In this document: piece by piece, positions 37,056 through 52,956 of the stretch
Numbering within the stretch: position 1 is the stretch's first letter
Layout: each line of letters opens with the position of its first letter
Source: Streptomyces sp. SCUT-3
GTDB taxonomy: Bacteria; Actinomycetota; Actinomycetes; Streptomycetales; Streptomycetaceae
NCBI RefSeq assembly: GCF_014083985.1
Contig: NZ_CP046907.1
Coordinates: 1,716,001 to 1,780,000 of the forward strand
Length of the DNA stretch: 64,000 nucleotides
Direction of reading: 5' to 3'
Notes under the pieces: generated by a model
Told to the model about the DNA's origin: nothing
Database searches by the model: none
The model's input: only the letters and a program-made list of their open reading frames with translations
Position numbers and translations under genes: made by a program

Positions 37056-37230
37056 TGCGACCGTCCTCCCCTGGTCCGGCCCCCAGGCTGTCAGGAGCCC
37101 GGTCGAACCTTCAAGAAAGCGTAATACCGGTCACAGCGGGCGCACCCGGTTACGGCGCATCTGGCCACGTGCGGAGCAGGTCTGACATGATGAGCCGACC
37201 GAATCAACTGCATACCGGCCGATTGAATCC

Positions 37231-37420
37231 GTGCGGGAGAGTCCCTGGCCGTCCAGGGCGCCGAAGGAGCAAGTCCTCCCTTGAATCTCTCAGGCACAGT
37301 CACCGCGCGGACGAGGCACATCTGAAAAGCGGTCCGCCCGTGGCGGGCCCACCCAAGGTGCAAGTCGGGGCCCCCGGGGGCTCACGACGAACCTCTCAGG
37401 TTCCGATGACAGATGGGGAG
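37231..37420 (+). promoter_or_regulatory. Tandem glycine riboswitch upstream of gcvT
   Basis: There are two glycine aptamers in series. The first runs about 37231-37297, with GGGAGAG paired to CTCTCAGG and the conserved core GCCGAAGGAGCAAG. The second runs about 37317-37420, with P1 CATCTG pairing to CAGATG (37410) and core CACCCAAGGTGCAAG. The gcvT start codon lies 38 bases after the second aptamer. Glycine binding is expected to turn on gcvT, and the tandem arrangement is the classical one. Confidence 0.93.
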
Positions 37421-45888: not shown

Positions 45889-47214
45889 CTACCCCGGCAG
45901 CAGGCTCCCGGTGGTGCGAGTGGTGTCGGCGGGCGCGCCGGGGCACAGGGCCGTGAGGGTGTGGCGGTCCCAGGCCGCGTCGATCGGGTGGGGGCGGGGG
46001 ACGCCGTTCTCGTCGAGGTCGTTGTACTTGGTCAGGTTGGTGCCCGTGGTCACCTGGCGTCGGCCGTCCGCGCTGGACAGCGCCAGGGTGGACATTCCCA
46101 TCACCGTCCCGTTGTGGCCCCAGAAACGGCCGCACGGCAGGTCGGTGGCGAAGAGGCCGAGGCCGTAGTGGCCGGCGGCGTTGCCCTGTTCGTCGGTGAT
46201 CGGCACGGTGCGCCGCATCTCGGCGAGCTGTTCCGGCCCCAGGAGGGCGCCCTGGAAGAGCTGCCGGTAGAAGCGGTTGACGTCGTCCACGGTGGAGACG
46301 AGGGCCCCGGCGGTGTCGAACGCGGAGGGGTGGTAGACGCTGTAGTCGCGCGGCGGGTCGAGCGTTCCGAAGAACGCCTCGTAGGCGGCCGAGTGCGGCC
46401 CGGGGACGAACGGGGTGGCGGGGAAGGACGTGTCCCGCAGTCCCGCCCTCTCGATCACGTTCCGGGCGATGTACTTCTCGGCGGTGGTGCCGGTGACCTT
46501 CTCCAGCAGCAGTCCGGCGAGGACGTAGTTGGTGTTGGAGTAGGCCCACTTCTCCCCCGGTTCCCCGGTGGGGGGCGCGGCCAGTCCGTGGCGGACGAGT
46601 TCCTCCTCCCCGAAGGCGCGGAACCGGTTGTCGTGGATGCTCCGGGGCGACCGCTCCGCGAAGGAGGGGAAGACGGTCTCGAGGTAGTCGGCGATGCCGC
46701 TGGTGTGGTTGAGCAGCATCCGCACGGTGACGGCCCGGCCCCGCTCGCCGGGGACCAGTTCCGGCAGGTGGTCGCCGATCGGGTCGTCCAGTCCGATGCG
46801 GCCGGCCTCTACGAGTTGGAGGACCGCGACGGCGGTGAAGGTCTTGGTGACGCTGCCGACCCGGTGCCGCATGCCGGCGTCCGCCGGGCGCCCGGTGTCC
46901 ACGTCGGCGACCCCGGTCGCCCCCGCCCAGCTCTCCCCGCCGTCGCGCACGGCCGAGTAGGCGCCGTACATCCCGGCGTCGCGGAGCGCGTCGAGGCTTT
47001 GCTGCAGGGCCGCCGGGTCGATCCCGGACGCCGCTCCCGCCGCCGTCGCCGTTCCTGTGGCCGTCGCCGCCGTCCGTGCGCCCTGCGCTGCGGTCGCCGC
47101 GGGTACGGCGGCCGCGGCCGGCAGGGCCGTGACCGTCAGGACCACGGCGCCGAGGCCGACCGCGATGCGGCGCAGGCCCCGGCGGGCGGTCGGTCGTGCG
47201 GCGGGTTTCGTCAT
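45889..47214 (-). CDS. Secreted serine hydrolase, beta-lactamase/D-Ala-D-Ala carboxypeptidase class (copy 1)
   Basis: This 441-residue exported enzyme of the serine beta-lactamase/DD-peptidase (S12) family begins with a Tat/Sec-like signal (RRGLRRIAVGLGAVVLTVTA, then an Ala-rich stretch). The active-site SxxK is GSVTKTF, the second motif is the YSN in WAYSNTNYVLAG, and the third is HNG in WGHNGTVMG. It may trim peptidoglycan or hydrolyse other amides or esters. It is clearly paralogous to the gene at 48449, and their upstream leaders are also alike. Start ATG 47214. Confidence 0.92.
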   Translation of the reverse strand: MTKPAARPTARRGLRRIAVGLGAVVLTVTALPAAAAVPAATAAQGARTAATATGTATAAGAASGIDPAALQQSLDALRDAGMYGAYSAVRDGGESWAGATGVADVDTGRPADAGMRHRVGSVTKTFTAVAVLQLVEAGRIGLDDPIGDHLPELVPGERGRAVTVRMLLNHTSGIADYLETVFPSFAERSPRSIHDNRFRAFGEEELVRHGLAAPPTGEPGEKWAYSNTNYVLAGLLLEKVTGTTAEKYIARNVIERAGLRDTSFPATPFVPGPHSAAYEAFFGTLDPPRDYSVYHPSAFDTAGALVSTVDDVNRFYRQLFQGALLGPEQLAEMRRTVPITDEQGNAAGHYGLGLFATDLPCGRFWGHNGTVMGMSTLALSSADGRRQVTTGTNLTKYNDLDENGVPRPHPIDAAWDRHTLTALCPGAPADTTRTTGSLLPG

Positions 47215-47442
47215 GCCGTCTCCCCTGTGATGTGGGCCGTGACGGCTCGATTCTTGTGCACCCTGCGCGCCACGGCCGTCCGCCGGGGGGAGGAACCTGT
47301 CTCCGCCGCACGGTTGACCGCCCCGGACGTCCCCCTCGGGGTGACGGGGGCCGGCCCCCGTGCGAGAGCGCGGCGCGCGGCGGCACAGGGCGGGGGCGCG
47401 GCGGCACGGTCGGGGACGCGGCGATATCCGCACCCCGCCGGG

Positions 47443-48297
47443 TCACTTCCGGGCTGCGGTCGCGGTGAGGCCCTTGCCGGAGTCGGTGGTGAGGGTCAGG
47501 GTGCCGTCCTCGCGGTCGTGGGTGACCTTGCCGGAGAGGATCTCGCGGAGTTCGTTCTCGGTCTTCATGACCGGCCCGGGGCACATCCTGCGGCTGCTCG
47601 CGATCTCGCCGAACTCGATCCGGTCGCCCTTGACGGCGGCCTCCGTGCTGAAGCCGTTGCAGCCGAGGCTGCCGCCGGCCCTGCCGTCCTCGCCGATGGT
47701 GAAGTGCGCCTTGCCCTCGACCTCGGCGGGCAGGGACTTCGCGGTCCCGCCGTCCACGAGCCCGGTCACCACCCACTCGGTGCCCTCGAGCGGCTCCTGC
47801 GGCCCGGGGGGCTCCGGGCCGAAGGTGATGCTGTCGCCGTTGTCCTTGGTCAGGACGAGGGTCTCGCCCTTGCCGGAGAGCTCGGCGGTGAGTGCGCCGG
47901 TGAAGACCTCGGCGAACCGTTCCTCGAACCGCTGGACGTCCTCGGCGCAGCCCTTCTCGGTCATCGCGACGTCGGAGACCGTGACCGTGTCGCCCTCGAC
48001 CTCGACGTCGGCGCCGAGGCTGTTGCAGCCCGCGCTGCCCCCGGACTTGCCTCCGGGCCCCTCCGCCCTGCCGGGCTCGAACTCCACGTGGGCGTCGGCG
48101 TCCGGGGGCAGGGGGTACTTCTTGCCGTCGACGGTGACGCTCTCCGGCACCCAGCGGACACCGGTCACGGCCACGTCGTTCTTCACCGCGCCGCTGCCGG
48201 CTCCCGTCCCGTCGACGGTCTGCGTGCCACAGGCCGTCAACGCGGCGGCCCCGAGCAGTGCCACGGCTGAGTGCTTGAGCTTCGTCCCTCGATCCAT
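47443..48297 (-). CDS. Lipoprotein with two META domains
   Basis: This 284-residue extracytoplasmic lipoprotein has a signal ending in the lipobox ALTAC (C23). Two META/HslJ-like domains follow: one from about residue 45 (VRWVPESVTVDGK, SAGCNSLGADV, VTVSDVAMTEKGC) and one from about 165 (GTEWVVTGLVDGG, GSLGCNGFSTEAA, IASSRRMCPGP). Each has the usual N-terminal W and GCN motif and a conserved cysteine. The role is unknown; E. coli HslJ is linked to novobiocin resistance. It lies between the two serine hydrolase paralogues on the same strand. Start ATG 48297. Confidence 0.88.
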   Translation of the reverse strand: MDRGTKLKHSAVALLGAAALTACGTQTVDGTGAGSGAVKNDVAVTGVRWVPESVTVDGKKYPLPPDADAHVEFEPGRAEGPGGKSGGSAGCNSLGADVEVEGDTVTVSDVAMTEKGCAEDVQRFEERFAEVFTGALTAELSGKGETLVLTKDNGDSITFGPEPPGPQEPLEGTEWVVTGLVDGGTAKSLPAEVEGKAHFTIGEDGRAGGSLGCNGFSTEAAVKGDRIEFGEIASSRRMCPGPVMKTENELREILSGKVTHDREDGTLTLTTDSGKGLTATAARK

Positions 48298-48448
48298 GGC
48301 CCTGTGACGTGCGCGGCCGGTCACCGGTTCCGCGCCGCCGCGGCGACCGGGGTGGAGTTGCGGTGCCAAACCGTCGTTCCGCAGCCCTTTTCTGCGGCGT
48401 GTCGTTGCGTTTTGGCGCCGCAACTCCCCCGTTGCCGTCGGCCGACGG

Positions 48449-49810
48449 TCAGCGGTTGCCGGGCGTCCCGAAGCGGAGAACCTGGGCCGACTGGTCCGGG
48501 CCGTTGACCAGCATCTCCGCCACGGCGGCCGGGTCCGTCTTCTCCGGCCCCTTGGCTGCCGCGGCCCCGCCCTCACCCGTGGGGCACAGGGCCTGGAGCA
48601 GGTACCCGCCGAGGGCCAGGTCGATCGGGTGGGGGTCGATCCGGCCGTCGTCGGTCATCTTCTGGTACTTCATCAGGTTGACCCCGTAGGACATCTGACG
48701 GCGGCCGTCCTCGCTGGTCAGCGACTCCGTGCCCGCGCCGAACACGGTTCCGCCGTGGCCCCAGTACCGGCCGCAGGGCAGGTCGAACGCCATGATGCCG
48801 AGGCCGTAGTGGCCCATGACGTTGCCCTCCACGTCGGTGACCGGCACGGTGCGCCGCATCTCGGCGAGCTGCTCGGCGCCGAGCAGCCGGCCGTCGAGGA
48901 GCAGCCGGTAGAAGCGGTTGAGGTCGTCCATGGTGGAGACCATCGCTCCGGCCGTGTCGAGCGAGGAGGGGTGGTAGACGCTGTAGTCGCGCGGCGGGTC
49001 GATGATTCCGAAGAGCGACTCGTACGCCTTCGAGTGCGGCCCGGGCACGAACGGGGTGCGGGGGAAGGACGTGTGCCGCAGTCCCGCCTTCCGGATCACG
49101 TTCCGGGTGATGTATTCCTCGGCGCTCGTGCCGGTGGCCTTCTCCAGCAGCAGCCCGGCGAGGATGTAGTTGGTGTTGGAGTAGGACCACTTCTCGCCCG
49201 GCTCGCCGGTCGGCGGGGCCTCCAGCCCCATGCGGACGAGTTCCTCCTCCTCGAAGGAGCGGAACCGGTTGTCGTCGAGGCTCTGCGGCGACATCTGCTG
49301 CAGGGAGGGGTACGCGTACATGACGTAGTCGGCGATGCCGCTGGTGTGGTTGAGCAGCATCCGCACGGTGATGCTGCGGCCCCGCTCGCCGGGGACCAGT
49401 TCCGGGAGGTGGTCGCCGATCGGGTCGTCCAGTCCGATGCGGCCGGCCTCGACCTGCTGGAGGACCGCGACGGCGACGAATGTCTTGGTGACGCTGCCGA
49501 TCCGGTGCCGCATGTCGGCGTCCACGGGGCGGCCGGTGCGCACGTCGGCGACTCCCGCCTCCCCCTTCCAGCGGTCCCTGCCGTCGCGCACCGCCGAGTA
49601 GACGCCGTACATCCCGGCCTCGTGGACCGCGTCGAGTCCCTGCTGCAGGGCCGCCGCGTCGATGCCGGACGTCTCCGCCGCCGGCGCCTGCCCGGCGGGC
49701 GCGGCGACCGCCGTCGGTACCGCGGTGGCCGTCAGGACCGCGGCTCCGAGGCCGAACACGATGCGGCGCAGCCTGCGGCGGGTGGTCGGTCGTGCGGTGG
49801 TCGTCGTCAT
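48449..49810 (-). CDS. Secreted serine hydrolase, beta-lactamase/D-Ala-D-Ala carboxypeptidase class (copy 2)
   Basis: This 453-residue paralogue of the gene at 45889 has a signal with RRRLRRIVFGLGAAVLTATA, SxxK in GSVTKTF, YSN in WSYSNTNYILAG, and HGG in WGHGGTVFG. It differs by a longer C-terminal extension (about 35 residues, AAAAKGPEKTDPAAVAEML) that copy 1 lacks. Long identical blocks such as GRIGLDDPIGDHLPELVPGE are shared by both copies. ATG 49810. It is first in the direction of transcription, ahead of META and copy 1. Confidence 0.92.
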   Translation of the reverse strand: MTTTTARPTTRRRLRRIVFGLGAAVLTATAVPTAVAAPAGQAPAAETSGIDAAALQQGLDAVHEAGMYGVYSAVRDGRDRWKGEAGVADVRTGRPVDADMRHRIGSVTKTFVAVAVLQQVEAGRIGLDDPIGDHLPELVPGERGRSITVRMLLNHTSGIADYVMYAYPSLQQMSPQSLDDNRFRSFEEEELVRMGLEAPPTGEPGEKWSYSNTNYILAGLLLEKATGTSAEEYITRNVIRKAGLRHTSFPRTPFVPGPHSKAYESLFGIIDPPRDYSVYHPSSLDTAGAMVSTMDDLNRFYRLLLDGRLLGAEQLAEMRRTVPVTDVEGNVMGHYGLGIMAFDLPCGRYWGHGGTVFGAGTESLTSEDGRRQMSYGVNLMKYQKMTDDGRIDPHPIDLALGGYLLQALCPTGEGGAAAAKGPEKTDPAAVAEMLVNGPDQSAQVLRFGTPGNR

Positions 49811-50713: not shown

Positions 50714-51763
50714 ATGCGGGTCCGTCGTGCACGTCGGGTCGGGGCGTTGGCGGGGGCGGTGGTGGCGGCGGTGGTCCTGGCGGCCGTGCCCGGGAGCGCC
50801 GGGGCGGCGGGGAGCGGGGCGGCGGCGGGGGCCGCCCTGTCGGCGACCACCGCCGCGGGCGTGCACAACGCCTACGAGAAGGGCACGTTCACCTACTTCG
50901 TGGACGCGCTGGACTCCGGCGCCGCCCTGGTGGAGCTGGACGTGTGGGCCGACTCCCTGAGCAGGCGGTGGCGGGTGAGCCACAGCAACCCGTTCGGGAA
51001 CGACAACAACTGCGAGTACGCCGACAGCCCCGAGGAGCTGCGCGGGCAGGTCCGCAACCAGGACCTGGGCAGCTGCCTGGACAACATCCGCGCCTGGCAC
51101 GACGCGAACCCCGGGCACCGGCCGATCGTGTTCAAGGTCGAGTTCAAGTCCGGCTTCAACAACAGGGCGGGGCTGGGCCCGGACGAGTTCGACGCCCTGG
51201 TGCGCGGCAGGCTCGGCGACATGGTGTTCACCCCGGCACGGCTGATGGCCGGCGGGCACGCCACGCCCGACGACGCGGCCCGGGCCGGCGCCTGGCCGAG
51301 CAGGGAGGCGCTGGCCGGCACGGTGATGTTCGAGGTGATCCCGGGCACCGTGGAGCAGTCCAACCCCACGGACACCCTGTGGACGGACGTGGAGTACGCC
51401 CGCCACCTGCGGGCCGCCCCCTCCACGGCGCAGGCCTTCCCGACCGTGCTCGGCGCGGAGGCGGGCGACCCGCGCACCCGCTACTCGGACACCTCGCTGC
51501 GGCCGTGGTTCGTGGTGTTCGACGGCAGTGCCGGCTCCTACGCGGCCGGGGGGATCGACACCTCCTGGTACGCGCGGAACAACTACCTGCTCGTGATGAC
51601 GGGCGCCCACTCGGTGGCCCCGGCCATCGACGCGTACAACCCCACCGAGCAGCAGGCGCTGGACCGGCTGGCGCTGCTCGCCGGCCGGCACGCGAGCTTC
51701 GCGACCAGCGACTGGTCCTCGCTGCGGCCGGAGGTGCTGGGCACGGTGCTCCCGCGCGGCTGA
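50714..51763 (+). CDS. Secreted PI-PLC-like phosphodiesterase (calcium-dependent type)
   Basis: This 349-residue exported enzyme begins with an Ala/Val-rich signal peptide (MRVRRARRVGALAGAVVAAV). The catalytic domain resembles calcium-dependent PI-specific phospholipase C of actinomycetes: GVHNAYEKGTFTYFVDALD with the first catalytic histidine, LVELDVWAD with acidic metal ligands, and WRVSHSNPFGNDNNC with the second histidine. IVFKVEFKSGFN supplies a further acidic residue. Its substrate may be phosphatidylinositol or another phosphodiester. GGAGG lies 5 bases before ATG 50714. Function is by family resemblance. Confidence 0.82.
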   Translation: MRVRRARRVGALAGAVVAAVVLAAVPGSAGAAGSGAAAGAALSATTAAGVHNAYEKGTFTYFVDALDSGAALVELDVWADSLSRRWRVSHSNPFGNDNNCEYADSPEELRGQVRNQDLGSCLDNIRAWHDANPGHRPIVFKVEFKSGFNNRAGLGPDEFDALVRGRLGDMVFTPARLMAGGHATPDDAARAGAWPSREALAGTVMFEVIPGTVEQSNPTDTLWTDVEYARHLRAAPSTAQAFPTVLGAEAGDPRTRYSDTSLRPWFVVFDGSAGSYAAGGIDTSWYARNNYLLVMTGAHSVAPAIDAYNPTEQQALDRLALLAGRHASFATSDWSSLRPEVLGTVLPRG

Positions 51764-51891
51764 CAGGACGCCCGGCCGCCCCGGCCGCGCAGGAGTTCCG
51801 GAGTGCGCGGCCGAGGCGACCGGAGTGACGGGGCCCGGGCGGCAGAACCCGGGCGGCGGGGCCCGACTGACGGGCCCGGGCGGCGGGCCGC

Positions 51892-52956
51892 TCAGGCGGG
51901 GGAGGCCGGGCGGGGGACGCCGGGGGCGGTGCCCGGGCCCGGGGAGGGGACGCAGGCCGCCTCCCCGCCGCGGACGAACCGGTGGTGGTGGAGGTTGCCG
52001 CTCATCAGGTGGCCGAGCTCCCTGAGGTAGAGCAGGACGTCGCCCCGTTCCCCGAGCGGGCCGTGCAGGACCCGCGCGCACGTCTCGGCGAAGTCCTCCT
52101 CGGCCGCGGCCACGAGCCCGGCGAGCTTGTCCACGGCGCCCTGCACGGTGCGGCCCTCGTGCGCGACGAAGACCCACACGGCGCTCACCGACCGGGGCGC
52201 GCGGCACTCCTCGGGGAAGGAGAACAGCTCGTCGACCAGCGTCAGGTGGTCGACGGCCAGGTCGCGGGCGGCCGCCAGGGCCGGGCTCTCCGAGAGCTCG
52301 CGGGTGAGGTCGACGCCGATCGCGTACTCGGTCAGGACGGCGGCCCTGTGGGCCGCGTGGTGGGTGCGGCGCACCCCCAGGTAGGTGGCGAAGTCCAGGA
52401 CGGTGTCGTCGTGCCCCTCCGCCGCCTCGTGCAGCGAGCACTCGACGGTCTCGCGGTGCGCCTGGCGGTAGCGGCGGGCCACGGCCGGGGGCATCCGGGG
52501 CGTGGTGCGCGAGAGCGCGGTGTACAGCAGCCGGCCGAGGGCGAACCCGGCGGGCGGGGCCACGTCGTCGAGCACGGACAGGAGCCGGTCGCGCAGGACG
52601 GCGGCGCGCTCGGGGTCGTCGCGGACGCCGGGGGCCCGGAACGCCTCGTCGGCCAGGGCCGTGGGGACGGCCAGGGACGCCAGCCCCGCGGCGCGGTCGT
52701 CGAGCGTGCGCGGGTAGCACAGGGCCGCACGCAGCGGGAGGCGGCGGGCGAGGAAACGTTCGGCCGCATCCTCGTTCCCGAAGTGCCCGACGAGGCCGGC
52801 CCGGGCGAGGTCGTTGCAGTGCCGTTCGATCGCGGCAGCGTCGTGGTGCCGCTCGGGCGGGAGCCACGAGGGCACGTCGGGGAGCTGGAACGCGGCGTCG
52901 CGGTACCGGGCGATCTGACTGAGCTGCACCCGGACACCATAGGACGAAAGGCGCAC
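51892..52956 (-). CDS. Divergent class I terpene synthase-like protein
   Basis: This protein of up to 354 residues aligns by eye with bacterial sesquiterpene synthases. The N-terminal AAFQLPDVPSWLPPE matches the usual FxLPxF start; NEDAAERFLARR and CYPRTLDD match the segment before the Asp-rich motif. That motif is altered: D103-E104-A-F-R107 in place of DDxxD. The NSE-type triad is D242-E243, S246 and E250 (DELFSFPEE). The pyrophosphate-sensor Arg is R196, exactly 46 residues before the triad, and R326-F327 stands where RY is usual. It is probably a cyclase with unusual metal binding, or has lost activity. GTG 52956 and GTG 52929 are both possible starts. No tailoring genes are adjacent. Confidence 0.72.
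   Translation of the reverse strand: MRLSSYGVRVQLSQIARYRDAAFQLPDVPSWLPPERHHDAAAIERHCNDLARAGLVGHFGNEDAAERFLARRLPLRAALCYPRTLDDRAAGLASLAVPTALADEAFRAPGVRDDPERAAVLRDRLLSVLDDVAPPAGFALGRLLYTALSRTTPRMPPAVARRYRQAHRETVECSLHEAAEGHDDTVLDFATYLGVRRTHHAAHRAAVLTEYAIGVDLTRELSESPALAAARDLAVDHLTLVDELFSFPEECRAPRSVSAVWVFVAHEGRTVQGAVDKLAGLVAAAEEDFAETCARVLHGPLGERGDVLLYLRELGHLMSGNLHHHRFVRGGEAACVPSPGPGTAPGVPRPASPA

Follow-up and report, generated by a model that had tools for sequence, protein, structure and literature searches.

A terpene synthase homologue of Streptomyces sp. SCUT-3 without the C-terminal RY pair

We analysed a 64,000-nt stretch of the single-contig 6.08 Mb genome of Streptomyces sp. SCUT-3 (hereafter the window) around an open reading frame whose product has a class I terpene synthase fold (Table 1). 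A profile search places this product above the curated cut-off of the Pfam family Terpene_syn_C_2 (PF19086; 91.3 bits against 23.7, E=9.2e-26) and its top solved match is the entry 9lpb (E=1.4e-34 over residues 20–323), which bears out the assignment made by an earlier sequence-only reading of this DNA. Venezuelaene synthase, VenA (7y9g/7y9h), is a further solved relative (E=1e-16). No NCBIfam equivalog is reached, the best being isoafricanol synthase at 52/500 bits, and the genome encodes one further PF19086 protein. Since the DNA of the region is 76% GC and chance long overlapping open reading frames abound in it, an intact frame is by itself weak evidence. The codon-position structure of the gene is strong (GC of 0.80/0.52/0.97 by codon position, and a GC3 of 97–100% across codons 101–350), resembling that of the neighbouring genes and unlike that of the intergenic DNA nearby (0.77 GC overall).

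The gene starts just beyond the end of a block with the order GlgX, L,D-transpeptidase, enoyl-CoA hydratase and anti-sigma factor (RsbW), an order kept in all five family members examined. None of the genes found past this block in five relatives adjoins it in the window, and its neighbours are unrelated. The sequence-only reading had reported no known tailoring gene alongside; this holds for the whole window, where no homologue of a prenyl synthase, P450, Rieske oxygenase, MEP-pathway enzyme or other partner of the sister genes described below was found. Convergent with the gene lies one for a PI-PLC-C1-like protein; of 40 relatives searched, 22 have a homologue of it at 45–64% identity. Further off are two adjacent paralogues of the serine beta-lactamase/DD-peptidase family with a lipoprotein-like ORF between them; one matches PF00144, and both match one and the same homologue in another locus (L077), where it lies some 3 kb away from the PLC-like gene. 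The window also holds a full-length glycine riboswitch aptamer (67.8 bits).

Table 1. Features of the terpene synthase homologue and other features of the window (window coordinates).
Feature	Position	Strand	Remarks
Terpene-synthase-fold gene	51892..52956	minus	354 aa; GTG start at 52956, stop 51894-51892
Arg71 at the VenA Gln83 position	52744..52746	minus	Gln in 4/4 sisters; 32 residues before D103; role of Gln83 from PMC10325987
Asp-rich motif position, D103 E104 A105 F106 R107	52636..52650	minus	By alignment; first Asp kept, second replaced by Glu, third acid absent
R196, pyrophosphate-sensor Arg, kept	52369..52371	minus	Arg in 36/38 homologues
NSE-triad position, DELFSFPEE	52207..52233	minus	Ligands D242, S246, E250 kept (Asn to Asp at 242); D243E, K249E
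Ser258 replacing Asn	52183..52185	minus	Asn normally bonds the NSE Glu (role: PMC8450962); eight positions after the NSE triad
C-terminus HHHRFVRGGEAACVPSPGPGTAPGVPRPASPA	51895..51990	minus	By alignments, without the RY pair and lid of all sisters; nearest candidates R326-F327, R329
PI-PLC-C1-like protein	50714-51763	plus	
Serine beta-lactamase/DD-peptidase-family paralogues	45889-49810	minus	
Paralogue matching PF00144	48449-49810	minus	
Glycine riboswitch aptamer	37224-37315	plus	

In a tree of 40 homologues (ingroup counts below refer to 38) the SCUT-3 protein falls in a five-member clade (support 100/99) with three Streptomycetaceae sequences, L004, L005 and L014, and one from a Burkholderia cenocepacia record, L017. 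The four sisters all keep the set Q..DD..ND..K..N..RY. L004 adjoins genes for a polyprenyl synthase, GcpE, DXR and DXS. Next to L005 are a P450 gene and one for a polyprenyl synthase, and L017 has a Rieske oxygenase gene and a methyltransferase gene for neighbours. Because the sisters sit beside terpene-pathway genes, the lineage looks like one of working cyclases, probably diterpene cyclases. The closest relatives found are 29–32% identical to the SCUT-3 protein over the full alignment (highest local identity 37%); the genomes searched contained no close relative and scans of genome contigs gave no named one. L004 (1.15) and L017 (1.36) both have longer end branches than the SCUT-3 protein (0.93). 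We note that L017 (5917–7011 of its locus) belongs to an otherwise streptomycete clade and lies on a 1.1 Mb B. cenocepacia replicon, where it was probably acquired by horizontal transfer. The second terpene synthase of the SCUT-3 genome (L002, 1201–2325 of its locus, at about 650.6 kb of contig C1) is selinadiene-synthase-like, scoring 293 bits against a cut-off of 450. It has RF where its relatives have RY, and its residue in the aligned sensor column is Cys.

The translation reads D103-E104-A-F-R107 at the Asp-rich motif, just as the sequence-only reading gave it. The D103 column is Asp in 37 of the 38 homologues. DEAFRA is not a complete DDxx(x)D/E motif, but three of the four sisters likewise have no third acid: their motifs are DDTFND, DDTFSK, DDTFSK and DDAFTH, with N/S/S/T at the fifth and D/K/K/H at the sixth position. 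Bacterial enzymes can usually do without the third acid, and the second can be replaced (PMC10325987); active enzymes with the motifs DDHRN and DDFIV are on record (PMC10509563). Because a third acid is not a feature of the clade, R107 breaks nothing clade-specific, and the lack of a third acid is fairly ordinary; the emphasis previously laid on a 'broken' first metal motif as the telling defect was thus misplaced. E104 is peculiar to the SCUT-3 protein within the clade, where the sisters all have DD at motif positions one and two, and is a mild change. The same column holds Ser in VenA and Asn in Bnd4, and in VenA only the first Asp is essential, Ser116 and Gln83 functionally standing in for the second (PMC10325987). 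The protein does not share the signature of the VenA/Bnd4 subclass, D(S/T/N)xx(x)D/E with a Gln/Glu about 30 residues upstream, having E104 at the second position and Arg71 upstream. Searches of genomes at the levels of family, order, class and phylum revealed no clade with a DEAFR motif.

The sensor Arg and the metal triad D242/S246/E250 were correctly recognised earlier, R196 lying exactly 46 residues before D242. Compared with the NSE pattern ND(L/I/V)xSxx(K/R)E, the triad has all three ligand positions filled, the first by Asp for Asn, while the second Asp and the Lys are both replaced by Glu. The structural anchors P82 and the R162–E210 pair (roles: PMC8450962) are also kept. Apart from the C-terminus, the departures are Q71R, D104E, N242D, D243E, K249E and N258S. 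The four that fall in the metal motifs (D104E, N242D, D243E and K249E) all end in Asp or Glu, an acidic direction that may lean a little towards continued metal binding. The further claim that the remaining active-site signals are intact fails on the missing RY pair and on Glu249 for the NSE Lys, Glu243 for Asp, Ser258 for Asn and Arg71 for Gln.

The C-terminal RY pair binds the diphosphate and closes the active site. Of the 38 ingroup homologues, 37 retain it, but the SCUT-3 protein lacks it: here the helix ends in ...GNLHHHRFVRGG and is followed by a Gly/Pro/Ala-rich tail. The sole ingroup exception, the streptomycete homologue L047 (genome G171), has SH there, has also lost the first Asp and carries VDDLFSLRRE as its NSE motif; by its sequence it appears to be an independent degenerate or non-canonical copy. 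In the SCUT-3 protein, one aligner leaves a gap of about 14 residues and another gaps the RY segment entirely. The only nearby substitutes are R326-F327, one helical turn early, and R329, and in the aligned register His324 takes the place of the aromatic residue conserved six positions before RY. A frameshift or sequencing slip hiding the pair is ruled out: neither other frame encodes RY, and since the 217 bases after F327 (51764–51980, minus strand) contain no TA dinucleotide, which Tyr requires, RY cannot be restored in any frame. CotB2 truncated at the Arg of its RY pair, with loss of the 12-residue lid, converted no substrate (PMC6808215); in VenA, Y345L is dead and R344K still works (PMC10325987). 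The informative defect is thus the lost RY pair and lid, together with the second-shell changes, and not the third acid.

We asked whether the losses are selective by scoring the columns invariant in L004, L005, L017 and L007 (11 catalytic and 22 other). The SCUT-3 protein keeps 4 of the 11 catalytic columns against 19 of the 22 others, with a Fisher p=0.006 that serves as a guide only, given that the sets are small, that the catalytic columns were picked from the literature after seeing the alignment, and that the protein was compared with four references and the relatives with three. Scored in turn against the remaining three, the relatives retain 11/11, 11/11, 11/11 and 11/12 of their catalytic columns and 52–73% of the other columns. 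In a second count, based on three sisters, the signal is weaker, with changes in 8 of 12 catalytic columns versus 24 of 54 overall (p=0.08). A GC3 of 97% and a branch that is not lengthened are hard to square with simple neutral decay. A scaffold kept, a catalytic second shell released and no excess of rate fit a maintained protein with altered catalysis better than they fit prolonged neutral decay, and the column pattern would suit an impaired enzyme and a rebuilt site alike.

Comparison with known systems places these changes in context. The Bnd4-like diterpene synthase 9lpb (DNAMVD), which we infer to be Bnd4 from the common motif, has the same family and fold, and both it and the SCUT-3 protein lack the second Asp and the NSE Lys; homologues with its motif (L006 and L021) keep Asn-Asp in the NSE triad and RY, whereas the SCUT-3 protein has DE..EE and no RY. 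VenA (DSFVSD), of the same family, has Gln83, Asn256/Asp257/Lys263 and R344-Y345 against Arg71, Asp242/Glu243/Glu249 and no RY. The sisters share a DDxF-type motif without a consistent third acid, and differ in their full catalytic set and, for L004 and L005, in their prenyl synthase neighbours. The sestermobaraene synthase SmTS1 is active despite the joint replacement of several conserved residues (in the Asp-rich motif, at the NSE second residue and at Asn+8; PMC8450962). It lacks the sensor Arg and has a changed Trp before RY, RY itself not being listed as lost (PMC8450962); the SCUT-3 protein is the reverse, with the sensor kept and RY lost.

With relatives at such low identity and a single-sequence AlphaFold2 model of mean pLDDT 38.8, the weights that follow are drawn from sequence and published mutants alone. 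We put at about even the chance that the gene encodes a real, single-copy, maintained but catalytically impaired offshoot, either an impaired enzyme or a pseudoenzyme, of a diterpene-cyclase-type lineage. Such a protein would retain the fold, the first-shell ligands D103, D242, S246 and E250 and the sensor Arg196, and would have lost much of the half that grips the diphosphate and closes the site (the RY pair, the C-terminal lid, the NSE Lys and Asn258). Mg2+ and prenyl diphosphate may still bind through the kept ligands and sensor. Because RY and lid are absent, and by the example of lidless CotB2 and VenA Y345L, usual closure would be lost and closure and ionisation should be poor, leaving little or no turnover. 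Against impairment, active enzymes offer comparable examples of each change save the joint loss of RY and lid: VenA and Bnd4 lack the second Asp, enzymes with DDFIV or DDHRN lack the third acid, the NSE motif DDLFSYGKE has Asp for Asn, and SmTS1 has a changed Asn+8 (PMC10325987, PMC8450962, PMC10509563), while RY to RF is known from a weakly active enzyme. Moreover, all first-shell ligands are kept, and random drift does not favour the acidic outcome of the four motif changes. These same observations make an active non-canonical cyclase conceivable, in which D103/E104 and D242/S246/E250 would bind three Mg2+, R196 would act as sensor, and R71, R326-F327 or R329 would replace the RY Arg. It would agree with the conservative or acidic nature of the motif changes, with an Arg at position 71, whose VenA equivalent contacts the RY Arg, with SmTS1 tolerating several replacements at once, and with the lack of branch acceleration or codon decay. 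We hold it possible but doubtful, as the lid is absent in any register, CotB2 is inactive without it, and the aromatic before RY has become His324.

That the gene is a recent or ongoing pseudogene, an orphan of secondary metabolism that has been separated from its cluster, has suffered a C-terminal deletion and is drifting, we consider unlikely. Pseudogenisation with deviating motifs and inactive proteins is known from a different branch of streptomycete terpene synthases (PMC10509563), the gene is isolated at the point where the GlgX–RsbW order stops, and it has no close relative in the genomes searched; however, changing 7 of 11 catalytic columns needs time, yet 19 of 22 others are kept, and neither GC3 over codons 101–350 nor branch length speaks for drift. 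The sequence-only reading had proposed that a normal DDxxD throughout the clade, with this copy alone degenerate, would point to decay. The SCUT-3 protein is indeed alone in having DE and lacking RY, but the sisters share no consistent third acid, and codon bias and branch length oppose simple decay. It also seems improbable that selection has kept the fold with a rebuilt catalytic face, an acidic metal site without the diphosphate clamp that could serve non-classical prenyl chemistry or non-catalytic prenyl diphosphate binding. The original list of odd cyclase, non-cyclising binder and decayed enzyme was thus reasonable, but its reason, loss of the third acid, was misplaced and the loss of RY went unseen. 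Overall, the SCUT-3 protein probably works weakly or not at all as an enzyme, and a new metal site is the less likely reading.

In genome mining, terpene synthases are often assessed on their first Asp-rich motif. Here, that motif is the tolerant part, and the RY lid at the C-terminus gives the better warning. If active, the SCUT-3 protein would show how the site of a class I terpene synthase closes without RY; if inactive, it would be a candidate terpene-synthase pseudoenzyme in which the scaffold is conserved and the catalytic columns are not.
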